From an uncultured Alphaproteobacteria bacterium (lineage in GTDB: Bacteria; Pseudomonadota; Alphaproteobacteria; RF32; CAG-239): a stretch of 34,633 bases of DNA. Numbering within the stretch: the stretch's first letter is position 1; every line of letters begins with the position of its first letter. The translations under genes were made by a program, and so were the position numbers. Shown here piece by piece: positions 5,933 through 13,637 of this stretch. Location: contig CALXTJ010000010.1 in the NCBI GenBank assembly GCA_944391375.1, forward strand, positions 1 through 34,633, given 5' to 3'. Below the pieces are notes generated by a model. That model saw nothing but the letters and a program-made list of their open reading frames with translations, did no database searches and was not told where the DNA came from.

Positions 5933-6487
5933 TTATTCGGCTACCGTAATTTCAAAATCAAGGGGCGGAAGAGTTCTGTAACGAGCTTTCATGCCGTGCA
6001 TACGGATTCGCAGTCCGTCAATTTGTTTACAAACAAACGGCGAAAGAAAAGTTAAAGTTCCGACATTAACCACGGAGCCTTCACTAAAAGTCCGATTATC
6101 GTCAATCAGATTAGAGCCATAGATTCGTCTTTCCTCACTTTTACCTTTATAATAAAAAGTAACCCGTGTTCCATCAACGGACTTTGCCCAATCTTTTTCA
6201 CCTCTTTGAGCAACTTTATAGATGCTAAACGGCACTTTAATATCGGTGATTCGGTCATTGGAAAGGCACCAAGACGAGCTAGGCAAAATATTACTGATAT
6301 CAATGGTAACTTCCACATTATCTTGAGGATAAAAAGCCCTGACAGATGAAGTTCCCCGCATGGCAACTTCCCAGTCCGGACTATTATTTTCCAGTTTTAA
6401 ATTACCTCCGGCCTGACTTGCCAAATCAGCAAAAGCCGGCAAGGAAAAAGTTCCAAGTAAAAACAATGCAAGCAATATTTTTTTCAT
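5933..6487 (-). CDS. Exported protein of unknown function (184 aa)
   Basis: The N-terminus KKILLALFLLGTFSLPAFA is a clear signal peptide with an AFA-D cleavage site, so the product should be periplasmic or secreted. The mature part is beta-rich and has two cysteines (in SSWCLSN and PFVCKQ) that could form a disulfide. I do not recognise the family. The frame starts two codons earlier, but GGAGG lies six bases before the ATG at 6487, so I chose that one. A weak promoter candidate lies at 6517-6545. The gene is transcribed away from the ribosomal terminator at 6626-6658. Confidence 0.7.
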   Translation of the reverse strand: MKKILLALFLLGTFSLPAFADLASQAGGNLKLENNSPDWEVAMRGTSSVRAFYPQDNVEVTIDISNILPSSSWCLSNDRITDIKVPFSIYKVAQRGEKDWAKSVDGTRVTFYYKGKSEERRIYGSNLIDDNRTFSEGSVVNVGTLTFLSPFVCKQIDGLRIRMHGMKARYRTLPPLDFEITVAE

Positions 6488-10703: not shown

Positions 10704-12053
10704 TTATTTTCTTTTCTTATGAACTAATGCCGCTTTTTTAATCAAGCCCTCGTACTGATAAGCAATCAAGTGCGATTGAACTTGTGTCATAAAGTCCATA
10801 GTAACCTGTACTACGATGAGCAAGGTTGTGCCGCCCAAAACAAACGGTACGGAAAGTTTGGAAATTAAAATTTCCGGCAAAATACACAAAGCCGTCAAAT
10901 AGGTAGCACCCAATACCGTCAAACGAGTAATAACATAATCCAAATACTCTGCGGTATTTTTACCGGGACGAATACCGGCAATAAAGCCTCCGTGTTTTTT
11001 CAAATTATCGGCCGTTTCTTCTGGATTAAATACCACTGCGGTATAGAAAAACGAGAAGAAGATAATTAAAAATGCATACAAAGCCAAATACAGCGGTTGG
11101 CCGTGTCCGAGCCATTGGCTCATGGTTTGAGCCCAAGAAGGTCCGTCCTGAGCCGACAAGTTGGCAATAGTAATCGGCAGCAACAACAAAGAGCTGGCAA
11201 AAATCGGAGGAATAACGCCGGTCGGGTTAATTTTTAACGGCAAGTGCGAACTTTCGGCCGCAGTCATACGCATACCCATCTGACGCTTCGGATATTGAAT
11301 AATGATTTTGCGTTGAGCTCTTTCTACAAAAACGATGATATAAATCAAAGCCAGAGCCATAACCAGCAACATGGCAATCACGCCCAAAGACATGGAACCG
11401 ATACGGCCCAATTCAAAAGTTTGAGCCAAGGCATTAGGAATGTTGGCAATAATACCGACAGTAATGATTAAAGACGAACCGTTACCAACGCCGCGGGAAG
11501 TGATTTGGTCACCAAGCCATACCACAAACATGGTACCGCCGACCAAAGAAACAATGGTCGTAAATTTAAACACAAAGCTCGGAATAACAACTGCGGAAAC
11601 ACCCATACCGTTGCTCATGCTCTCCAAGCCGACGGCAATACCGTAACCTTGGATAATGGTAATCAAAACAGTTAAAATTTTGGTATAGTGTGTAACTTTA
11701 CGATGTCCGGCCTCACCTTCTTTTTTCAGAGCCGCCAGAGAAGGAATAACCGACTGGCCGAGTTGAATGATAATGGAAGCCGAGATATACGGGAAAATAT
11801 TAAGAGCAAAGATGGTCATACGCGACAACGCACCACCGGAGAACATATTAAACATACCCAAAATACCGCCCGAATGCTGAGCAAAGACATCTGACAAGAC
11901 TGCCGCATCAATACCCGGCAACGGAATAAAGGTTCCTAAACGGAACACTATTAAAGCTAAAATCGTAAACCACAATCTTCTTTTAAGTTCGTCAGCTTTA
12001 CTAAATGCGGACATATCCATATTTGCCGCCATTTTTTCTGCTAATGATACCAT
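10704..12053 (-). CDS. secY: Preprotein translocase subunit SecY
   Basis: SecY is the protein-conducting channel of the inner membrane. There are about ten hydrophobic segments. FRLGTFIPLPGID, the plug-region FNMFSGGALSRMTIFALNI, QLGQSVIPSL and the cytoplasmic FVERAQRKIIIQYPKRQMG loop are family hallmarks. The frame extends seven codons upstream to a GTG, but the ATG at 12053 has AAGGAAG five bases before it, so I use 449 aa. Normally secY follows rplO. Here 2.4 kb with three unrelated genes intervene, and secY appears to have its own promoter (12124-12151). Confidence 0.97.
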   Translation of the reverse strand: MVSLAEKMAANMDMSAFSKADELKRRLWFTILALIVFRLGTFIPLPGIDAAVLSDVFAQHSGGILGMFNMFSGGALSRMTIFALNIFPYISASIIIQLGQSVIPSLAALKKEGEAGHRKVTHYTKILTVLITIIQGYGIAVGLESMSNGMGVSAVVIPSFVFKFTTIVSLVGGTMFVVWLGDQITSRGVGNGSSLIITVGIIANIPNALAQTFELGRIGSMSLGVIAMLLVMALALIYIIVFVERAQRKIIIQYPKRQMGMRMTAAESSHLPLKINPTGVIPPIFASSLLLLPITIANLSAQDGPSWAQTMSQWLGHGQPLYLALYAFLIIFFSFFYTAVVFNPEETADNLKKHGGFIAGIRPGKNTAEYLDYVITRLTVLGATYLTALCILPEILISKLSVPFVLGGTTLLIVVQVTMDFMTQVQSHLIAYQYEGLIKKAALVHKKRK

Positions 12054-12094
12054 TTTTTCTTCCTTAAAAAACACAAATTTAAAAACAACCGATT

Positions 12095-12766: not shown

Positions 12767-13387
12767 TTAAAACCAATCAAAACTAAAAGAAGATATTCCA
12801 CCGGGATTTTGACTATCATCTTGTACTTTACATACATTTTCAATATCCAATAATTTAATATCCTTCAGGCACTTACGATTTTCCGTACAATAATCGTCTC
12901 CATAATAATTAAGTTGTCCGCCGTTAGGCAATGTTACCGTAAAGTAAGATAATTGTCCGCTAAATTCTTTAGCCGCCGTCAACAAATTTTGGCATATGGG
13001 AAATCTGAAATCGGTATTTTCAATATAATAACGCAACCCCCATTTATAAGCTGTAGAATATAATGTAGAGCTTTGCAATATGATATATGAATTAAACATA
13101 TCATATATTCTGCTATTTCCGCTTTCTTCATATCTAAATCCGTCCGGAATTATATTTAATTTATCAAACAGGTAAGTCATATTTGTCATTCCGTCCGCTA
13201 TGGGCAGATTAGAGGTAAATTGTAAAGCATTTTGCAATAAAAAATTCATGCCGGATACATGCACATTAAGTTTGTGTTTCATCATAGCTTTGGAATATCC
13301 GGCGATAGCCCCAACGGAGAGCACACCGATAATTGCCAAAACGCCGAGCATTTCCACCATAGAACGACCTTTATCATTTACATACAT
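12767..13387 (-). CDS. Type IV prepilin-like / pseudopilin protein (206 aa)
   Basis: The N-terminus has a short charged leader ending in Gly7, then RSMVEMLGVLAIIGVLSVGAI. This is the class III signal for a prepilin peptidase, with the conserved glutamate at +5 and a hydrophobic helix of about 20 residues. The +1 residue is arginine rather than the usual phenylalanine or methionine. The C-terminal domain is globular with several cysteines (in FPICQN, DDYCTENRKC, ENVCKV) that could form disulfides, as in minor pilins. The frame extends upstream to 13453, but that part overlaps a terminator. I chose the ATG at 13387, which has an AGGG ribosome site. No pilus assembly genes are nearby. Confidence 0.82.
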   Translation of the reverse strand: MYVNDKGRSMVEMLGVLAIIGVLSVGAIAGYSKAMMKHKLNVHVSGMNFLLQNALQFTSNLPIADGMTNMTYLFDKLNIIPDGFRYEESGNSRIYDMFNSYIILQSSTLYSTAYKWGLRYYIENTDFRFPICQNLLTAAKEFSGQLSYFTVTLPNGGQLNYYGDDYCTENRKCLKDIKLLDIENVCKVQDDSQNPGGISSFSFDWF

Positions 13388-13417
13388 TTTCAACACCCTT
13401 ATAAAAATCAATTTAAA

Positions 13418-13604
13418 CAAAAACCCACTTATTAAGTGGGCGGATGTTGACAACCGTATATACTCAAACGGCTCGGCCTATTGGCATAGAGCTTATTTAG
13501 CCGACATCCGTCCGTACGGATAGAAGTCGGCACCTATTTAAAGTCGCGTGCACACGACTGAGCATATAAAGGTTGTCACGCCCTTGATATAAATCTATAT
13601 CAAG
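13418..13604 (-). ncRNA. Candidate structured RNA: four-way junction plus terminator
   Basis: On the minus strand this starts at a predicted promoter (13609-13637) and ends at an intrinsic terminator (13440-13419). A nine-pair hairpin (13604-13583, loop of four) opens it. The closing stem pairs 13578-13571 with 13455-13448 (eight pairs) and 13568-13559 with 13466-13457 (ten pairs, one G-U). Inside are three hairpins: 13558-13543 with a TGCA loop, 13531-13500 with 12 pairs and an ACGG loop, and 13492-13471. The length of about 187 bases suits a small RNA. Only 31 bases separate the terminator from the pilin-like gene, so a regulatory leader is equally likely. It matches no riboswitch class I know. 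Confidence 0.55.
13419..13440 (-). terminator. Intrinsic terminator ending the candidate RNA
   Basis: On the minus strand CCCACTT (13440-13434) and AAGTGGG (13430-13424) pair around a three-base loop. Five T, a G and three more T follow. It lies 31 bases upstream of the pilin-like start codon, with no obvious promoter in between. Confidence 0.75.
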
Positions 13605-13608
13605 CAGG

Positions 13609-13637
13609 AGTGTATACATATAATTGATAAAAGTAAA
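13609..13637 (-). promoter_or_regulatory. Promoter for the candidate RNA / pilin-like gene
   Basis: TTTACT (13637-13632) and TACACT (13614-13609) are 17 bases apart on the minus strand. Each matches four of six consensus positions. The predicted start near 13602 coincides with the first hairpin of the RNA. Confidence 0.5.

Follow-up and report, generated by a model that had tools for sequence, protein, structure and literature searches.

A predicted two-state leader RNA of uncultured gut Alphaproteobacteria and its likeness to sRNA-Xcc1

Riboswitches that act through both a terminator and the ribosome-binding site have a shared 3' strand that toggles between the sensor fold and the terminator or an anti-Shine-Dalgarno helix. 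Riboswitches for c-di-GMP also occur before surface and pilus genes. Another RNA, sRNA-Xcc1 (Rfam RF02221), is said in the title of a 2011 report by Chen to act in trans. The parts of the literature available to us describe sRNA-Xcc1 as an 88-nt RNA in Xanthomonas (PMC2996969), place it upstream of symE in integron cassettes with a divergent mechanism suggested (PMC12444791), and report seven homologues in Xylella with targets predicted in trans, including plant targets (PMC12189769). A table in the portion of PMC12189769 at hand gives RF01394 for isrK and, for Xylella fastidiosa De Donno, places C4, isrK and sRNA-Xcc1 in a span of about 400 bases; as tabulated there, this cluster of C4 antisense RNA, isrK and sRNA-Xcc1 would fit a set of leaders stacked ahead of an antirepressor operon. 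RF02221 is among the structure updates in the available part of PMC11701678, and the accessible passages of PMC6557892, PMC8876359 and PMC4909258 only cite sRNA-Xcc1 work. Among the matches listed in the open-licence literature, in the text that could be consulted, there was neither a description of the RNA reported here, which we call the gut RNA, nor a reading of sRNA-Xcc1 as a cis leader that sequesters a ribosome-binding site.

The gut RNA can be compared with each of these systems. It resembles the terminator and ribosome-binding-site riboswitches in a 3' strand that is predicted to toggle and differs from them in that the window gave no match at threshold to any of 4227 Rfam families; it likewise differs from c-di-GMP riboswitches in having no Rfam match to them. 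The likeness to IsrK, the leader of the anrP antirepressor operon of Gifsy-1, lies in a structured RNA before an antirepressor operon, in terminator read-through and in an mRNA silenced by its own leader, as the available part of PMC4825925 describes. IsrK differs in that, by that account, it relies on an upstream ORF and on a short form acting in trans. No match to RF01394 (IsrK) was obtained in Rfam scans of the window, other copies and phage records.

The window is a 34,633-nt stretch of DNA from an uncultured Alphaproteobacteria bacterium (assembly GCA_944391375.1, contig CALXTJ010000010.1). An earlier note, made from the letters alone, had proposed a structured RNA at 13418-13604 on the minus strand, on which all features named below also lie. 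This is a real structured RNA. The minimum free energy (MFE) of the 187-base RNA is -77.8 kcal/mol compared to a mean of -46.3 (sd 4.2) for dinucleotide shuffles (z = -7.54), and none of 200 shuffles was as good. The MFE fold contains the 9-pair 5' hairpin and the three enclosed hairpins that the note described, including one with 12 pairs (6+3+3), as well as a terminator hairpin. The closing stem had been drawn with eight and ten pairs; the eight were recovered, and the ten proved to be nine, with two further outer GG/CC pairs. The 5' hairpin, P0 (13583-13604 in the MFE fold), is variable in sequence, and 186 of 208 copies have a perfect stem there that is 5 bp or longer, compared to 32% of shuffles.

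The intrinsic terminator predicted in the note was also found. It spans 13418-13441 in the MFE fold, was placed at 13441-13423 by a terminator scan, and has an equivalent after 200 of 208 distinct copies, with none after the other eight. The upstream gene ends in a terminator-like hairpin of its own (13733-13706), so the RNA seems to form a unit of its own. The promoter claimed in the note fared less well in the window, where a consensus scan found none directly 5' of the RNA and the nearest match on the same strand was at 13721-13692. Across the 208 copies, however, TATAAT-like hexamers (5 of 6 bases) peak 37-34 nt before the GGGC that opens the core (52 matches) and TTGACA-like hexamers peak 58-54 nt before it (31 matches), which makes it likely that the RNA has a promoter of its own. 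The position of the family peak suggests a possible -10 region (TATGTA / TATACA) at 13611-13620 that the consensus scan of the window did not pick up.

Behind the terminator is an open frame (12767-13453) whose first possible start is a TTG. We chose the ATG at 13387 because of its Shine-Dalgarno region, GGGUGUUGA (13390-13398), in which GGGUG begins 11 nt before the ATG. This start yields a pilin-like protein of 206 aa (12767-13387) beginning MYVNDKGRSMVEMLGVLAIIGVLSVGAIAGYSKAM, with an N_methyl match (PF07963) of 16.1 bits that is under the cut-off of 21.2. The RNA and this gene sit between the gene for ribosomal protein L15 (14475-14930) and secY (10704-12074), and inside this stretch a single unrelated ORF flanks them on each side. 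A copy in another genus (L030) also lies near the L15 gene and precedes a different exported protein.

The earlier note had suggested a covariance-model search of related genomes, and this search found homologues that keep the pairing. In BLAST searches the element matched at three places in the window's own genome, and 20 of the 55 genomes covered had a match. A covariance model, R1, was built from an alignment (A1) of 31 copies, one of which is the window copy; it matches the window core (GGGCGU ... CAUCCGCCC, 13438-13583) with 128.2 bits over model positions 1-149 of 149. R1 detected the RNA at six places in the window's own genome and, across the 153 genomes of the window's family, in 131 (98 of the 110 of good quality). 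Four genomes that were rescored more deeply had 19, 30, 31 and 54 places. A class-wide sample of 385 genomes included 22 with the RNA, and 18 of these do not belong to the window's family. A pattern scan of named genomes gave at least 102 stretches, mostly labelled uncultured Alphaproteobacteria and many from animal gut samples, with 'Azospirillum sp. CAG:239' among the matches listed. The model also matches 101 of the 102 stretches listed; the stretch from Rubrivivax (L123), without a model match, was rejected as a chance hit. From these searches we assembled 212 distinct copies, entering places found twice only once, and removal of one weak copy and of identical cores left 208 distinct cores. 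The copy with the lowest R1 score (L070) was kept out of the alignments, and weak matches on the opposite strand (two in one scan, four in another) were not used.

We examined the anatomy of the core in 99 diverse copies aligned to a second model, R2 (alignment A3). This alignment was fitted to P1, P1b, P2, P3, X1:X2 and a small hairpin, and not to PK1, X2:X3, PK2 or P6. Taking P1, P1b, P2, P3, PK1 and X2:X3 together, 93.2% of cells were paired compared to 73.3% when shuffled and 28-43% when slid, and 631 cells were double-changed compared to 178 shuffled, with double changes in 31 of 33 pairs. These shuffles, like the swap tests below, take the copies as they are and leave relatedness in. We also used a home-made tree-based null with a sequence-only alignment of the 208 cores; among the proposed helices only pairs of P1b, P2 and P6 reached E<0.05 in this test. 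Four column pairs that are not part of the proposed helices also passed, two of them one off from P1b and two short-range.

The outermost helix, P1, joins GGGC (13580-13583) to GCCC (13438-13441), which is also the 5' arm of the terminator. It is paired in 97.7% of cells, and two of its four pairs are double-changed, each in a single sequence. The suggestion in the note that these bases could extend the closing stem into the terminator describes a plausible switch, in which P1 competes with the terminator. Inside P1 are P1b, in which GACAACC (13571-13577) pairs with 13449-13455 (92.8% paired, double changes in 7/7 pairs, three pairs with E<0.05 in the tree-based test), and the sequence-variable P2, in which 13560-13567 pairs with 13458-13465 (97.6% paired, double changes in 8/8 pairs, four pairs with E<0.05). 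The P3 hairpin AGUCG/CGACU (13542-13559) is paired in 95.3% of cells, and covariation indicates that GCAC in its loop (13548-13551) can pair with GUGC (13530-13533) to form PK1 (69.6% paired, double changes in 4/4 pairs, in a loop where the alignment is poor). A CCGU/ACGG hairpin, P6 (13454-13471), encloses the 3' strand of P2 and is paired in 96.9% of cells; GC changes to AU in 15 sequences, and one pair has E<0.05. Positions 13454-13455 are common to P6 and P1b.

Three short strands in the core point to two alternative arrangements. X2 (UCGGC, 13500-13504) is complementary both to X1 (GCCGAC, 13526-13531), its local partner in hairpin P4, and to X3 (GCCGA, 13473-13477), its long-range partner. 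X1:X2 is paired in 97.6% of cells and double-changed in 6/6 pairs (49 cells), for five of which A3 had been fitted. X2:X3 is paired in 98.7% of cells over four pairs and 98.3% for the fifth, with double changes in 5/5; in the tree-based test its pairs had E values of 0.15, 0.375 and, for another, about 11. The three strands change together in several types of copy (CTGA/TCAG/CTGA, CCAA/TTGG/CCAA and CCGG/CCGG/CCGG), and in a few copies X1:X2 is broken where X2:X3 holds. Next to X2 is CGGAUG (13505-13510), an internal partner of the anti-Shine-Dalgarno strand; this helix, PK2, pairs with 13441-13446 in 99.0% of cells and has double changes in 4/6 pairs. The tree-based E values for PK2 were about 22-43, not significant because these columns barely vary, and what speaks for PK2 is a small number of changes specific to single lineages, together with the closing helix of the Rfam model of sRNA-Xcc1. 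These comparisons support two conserved folds, one with the local X1:X2 hairpin and the other with long-range X2:X3 and the pseudoknot. The stem with three hairpins described in the note shows just one of these two folds.

The strand that closes PK2 has a further predicted partner outside the core. In the window, UCAACAUCC (13442-13450) is complementary to the Shine-Dalgarno region GGGUGUUGA, with which it would form a helix of 9 bp (one G-U) at -12.3 kcal/mol. Its ACAUCC motif is complementary both to the internal GGAUGU and to a Shine-Dalgarno of GGAUGU(U), and the three strands (internal, anti-Shine-Dalgarno, Shine-Dalgarno) co-vary as GGGUGC/ACACCC/GGGUGU and GGAUUU/AAAUCC/GGAUUU. The further changes GGAAG/CUUCC/GGAAG and GGAGG/CCUCC/GGAGG weigh less because they are also ordinary Shine-Dalgarno sequences. 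We compared each copy with swapped partners in 206 copies, leaving out L152 and L262; 190 had a recognisable Shine-Dalgarno and 16 had none. The duplex with the copy's own Shine-Dalgarno had a mean of -10.5 kcal/mol compared to -9.1 when swapped, and none of 5000 swaps was as low. Among the 26 copies with a non-standard anti-Shine-Dalgarno, 20 pair better with their own Shine-Dalgarno than with the average one, and in the other six (L021, L126b, L204, L206, L261 and L265) their own is no better. The base just outside the motif pairs in 122 of 190 copies, whereas 1000 permutations gave 99.7 on average and 117 at most. By the same crude measure, GGATGTT precedes 30 of 143 ORFs linked to the RNA and none of the 746 other ORFs in these loci.

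Based on these results, we consider it highly probable that the gut RNA is a cis-acting two-state leader, a 5' UTR switch with control points in both transcription and translation. Conservation, covariation, the terminator, the Shine-Dalgarno complementarity and the placement before gene starts support this reading; which fold means ON, the operation of both control points and an effector that tips the balance are what we infer. Transcription would start just before P0. In the predicted ON fold P1 joins GGGC to GCCC, the flanking strands form P1b and P2, X3 is the partner of X2, and PK2 forms between the internal CGGAUG and CAUCCG. Strand CAUCCGCCC would thereby be occupied, so that the terminator could not form and the Shine-Dalgarno would stay free. 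In the OFF fold X2 would be back on X1, PK2 and P1 would open, and GCCC would nucleate the terminator; any read-through transcripts would have their Shine-Dalgarno GGGUGU covered by ACAUCC. Because CAUCCGCCC can be used either by PK2 and P1 or by the anti-Shine-Dalgarno helix and the terminator, the pseudoknotted fold is the putative ON state. The effector, which could be a small molecule, a protein or an RNA, would tip the balance between the two. The note had proposed control by terminator read-through, which is plausible and incomplete, as it missed sequestration of the Shine-Dalgarno.

The genes behind the RNA are varied. By a simple rule (signal peptide, lipobox or prepilin signature), export signals were present in 148 of the 190 distinct first genes that encode 60 aa or more, a count inflated by paralogous families, and in 156 of 521 control ORFs (at least 150 aa, same loci). 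Several of the 42 first genes with none by this rule plainly have signal peptides by eye, and 14 further copies had no first ORF of at least 60 aa. We searched Pfam with 79 chosen gut proteins of 153. The 25 families listed of 54 included BspA-type leucine-rich repeats (10), outer-membrane barrels (5), opacity porins (4), PEGA (4) and APH (4), with single matches to restriction, methylase, glycosyltransferase and pilin families. These counts suggest that the target theme is accessory, mostly cell-surface genes, and not only exported ones. As proteins of many kinds, most of them exported, are encoded behind this RNA, the link to a pilin drawn in the note is incidental, and a pilin-specific regulator was rejected because other copies precede unrelated genes.

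We wished to place the gut RNA relative to sRNA-Xcc1. By score the window copy is not a member of RF02221: it does not reach the gathering score of 53 and gave no match even at E<=5, where the window had seven chance-level matches to other families. With sensitive settings, six of ten other loci gave full-length matches of 28.9-36.3 bits and four gave none. The matches in gut loci fall on the 3' half of the RNA; the best score in the window's own genome was 31.7 bits, and L032 searched alone had an E value of 7.4e-5. Among 372 genomes of the class, RF02221 matched in 47, seven of them above threshold. The Rfam model has a closing helix, a middle helix and a 3' hairpin, which in L032 align to PK2, X2:X3 and P6, so that all three Rfam helices are present in the gut RNA. 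The two differ in that the gut RNA has a core of about 150 nt with a 5' half that is absent from the Rfam model, and in that Rfam and the papers, in the parts available, label RF02221 an sRNA. BLAST of the RF02221 consensus against plasmids gave four partial matches.

Intermediates connect the two RNAs. A model built from gut copies, R3, matches 17 of 30 RF02221-positive bacterial loci at the RNA's place. Among the seven loci above the RF02221 threshold, three matched full-length (L273 with 59.6 bits and E 2e-13, L271 with 1.8e-7 and L269 with 1.3e-5), and R3 did not match L267, L268, L270 or L272. On phage and viral loci R3 matched two of 20 (L297 and L340), weakly, with E about 0.02. Several RF02221 loci have, by eye, P1b, P2, X1, a terminator and Shine-Dalgarno complementarity in their flanks. 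The clearest with a gut-type 5' half is L273, with the pairings UUAGAACC/GGUUCUAA and UCCUGAA/UUCAGGA by eye, X1/X2/X3 of GCUGCC/GGCAGC/GCUGC, PK2, a terminator, and CUCCC with a Shine-Dalgarno of GGGAG. In bacterial and phage RF02221 loci the duplex with the own Shine-Dalgarno was -17.1 compared to -14.8 swapped, and 3 of 5000 swaps were as low (n=24 of 34, the ten loci without a recognisable gene being left out). Because of the matches through intermediates, we take the gut RNA and sRNA-Xcc1 as one superfamily. By these comparisons the gut RNA is an extended, sub-threshold relative of sRNA-Xcc1, and in our reading sRNA-Xcc1 corresponds to the stable 3' half of a leader of this type. The statement in the note that the RNA matches no known riboswitch or small RNA thus has to be amended, even though the window copy itself has no RF02221 match.

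The phage and viral members point in the same direction. The RF02221 consensus matches 15 phage records. In the four that we examined (H5, H7, H8 and H10) RF02221 scores 71-86 bits, and the RNA lies 36-38 nt before a gene annotated as Ant, KilA-N, anti-repressor Ant or hypothetical; the gene order in Aaphi23 is q, RNA, ant. A motif scan of viral contigs gave at least 120 stretches, and the 80 listed together with L297-L300 made 75 distinct sites. An ORF with a Shine-Dalgarno starts 70-119 nt after the motif at 62 of these, and 13 had none by the rule used. We searched Pfam with 46 of the 62 proteins after removing similar ones and found antirepressor-type domains (AntA, KilA-N, Bro-N, P22_AR, Phage_pRha, ORF6N) in 40, two of which (L323 and L377) are under Pfam's cut-off; the six proteins without such a domain are 84-139 aa long. 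With such genes behind the motif, sRNA-Xcc1 itself probably serves mainly as a leader in cis.

In the phage type the Shine-Dalgarno would be covered by the 3' strand of P2/P1b and not by ACAUCC. Duplexes of the own 3' strand with the Shine-Dalgarno had a mean of -22.5 at viral sites compared to -15.2 swapped, with none of 5000 swaps as low. The viral Shine-Dalgarno region repeats at least 8 bases of the P1b/P2 5' strand at 23 of 62 sites, compared to 4.8% swapped, so the same 3' strand can cover it. This suggests a wiring unlike the gut version with a similar logic. Of the 75 phage-type sites (L297-L300, L301-L380), 64 have a run of at least five T's between the 5' strand and the sRNA-Xcc1 motif, some 20-110 nt ahead of the latter and often after a hairpin that is GC-rich by eye, suggesting an additional early terminator that we did not notice in the gut version.

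The trigger of the proposed leader could be of several kinds. An orphan riboswitch, whose conserved fold would serve as the aptamer and whose ligand, a metabolite or a second messenger, would stabilise the ON fold, is a serious candidate, though we think it has less than an even chance; it names the trigger of the leader model and does not exclude that model. The compact pseudoknotted fold with conserved unpaired AAUAAG segments, the 3' strand common to the fold and to the terminator and Shine-Dalgarno helices, and the many copies before genes of mostly one theme agree with a riboswitch, and a conserved fold coupled to a 5' UTR expression platform is what sequence comparison finds. However, surface proteins, APH, restriction genes and phage antirepressors would be an unusual range for one metabolite. 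As a ligand c-di-GMP is unlikely, since the RNA occurs in 10 of the 13 family genomes that have no GGDEF match at E<=0.001 (12 of the 13 belong to genus g4 and some are incomplete); the window's own genome has two GGDEF matches. With no Rfam match either, a c-di-GMP riboswitch was rejected.

Control of RNA by RNA, as in IsrK, is a rather unlikely trigger by comparison. Terminated short leaders would act in trans on read-through transcripts from their own or sister loci, and the many copies within a genome would cross-talk. For IsrK the available part of PMC4825925 describes a short form together with a read-through mRNA that is translationally silent, and phage members of the family precede antirepressor genes as IsrK does (for example in Aaphi23). 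The GGGUGU/ACACCC version is common to ten copies of two genomes (G109 and G113), which speaks for this reading, but other copies in these genomes keep ACAUCC (e.g. L057, L059 and L179), and the copy-specific stems P2 and P0 favour action in cis.

That the RNA is an independent small RNA acting in trans, with an incidental neighbour gene, is improbable. It would account for the likely own promoter and terminator and for sRNA-Xcc1 having been mapped as an 88-nt RNA of about 100 nt on northern blots, as the accessible text of PMC2996969 reports; set against this are the narrow distance and fixed orientation to the start codon, seen also at the 62 of 75 phage-type sites, and the complementarity of each anti-Shine-Dalgarno to the Shine-Dalgarno of its own copy in particular. 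A MITE or other repetitive or mobile DNA with a fold that is fortuitous is very improbable. The 54 copies in one 1.5 Mb genome might suggest it, and it was rejected because copies of the RNA lie before gene starts, carry compensatory changes and have diverged from one another.

Returning to the two-state leader, a broader reading can be put forward tentatively, and we would not be surprised to see it fail. One ancient, modular leader class may stand behind the sRNA-Xcc1 label and serve as a general on/off module for accessory genes, including the antirepressors of phages, the symE cassettes of integrons and, in gut Alphaproteobacteria, regulons with as many as 54 genes, mostly for surface proteins; it would answer to one intracellular signal and could travel together with its target genes. 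Were a single signal to open all of these leaders, prophage antirepression, integron cassettes and host-facing surface variation would share a common cue. With sRNA-Xcc1 more likely a cis leader than trans-acting, its mutants and targets would have to be read differently. The expansion in the gut points to a large surface-protein regulon in uncultured animal-gut bacteria.

Some copies are of interest in themselves. Two weak copies in the window's own genome (L167 on contig C1 and L169 on C5) have no recognised downstream ORF and are possibly decayed. Closely spaced copies on the same strand occur in L051 (1501-1654 and 1742-1906), L256 (749-902 and 1501-1659) and contig C48 of genome G147 (5989-6137 and 6293-6447) and are reminiscent of tandem riboswitches; the upstream copy in L051 has no terminator. 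The genome with 54 copies in 1.5 Mb (G140; L207-L250 and others) has many of them before secreted proteins with similar N termini, which looks like a large surface-protein repertoire under one type of leader.
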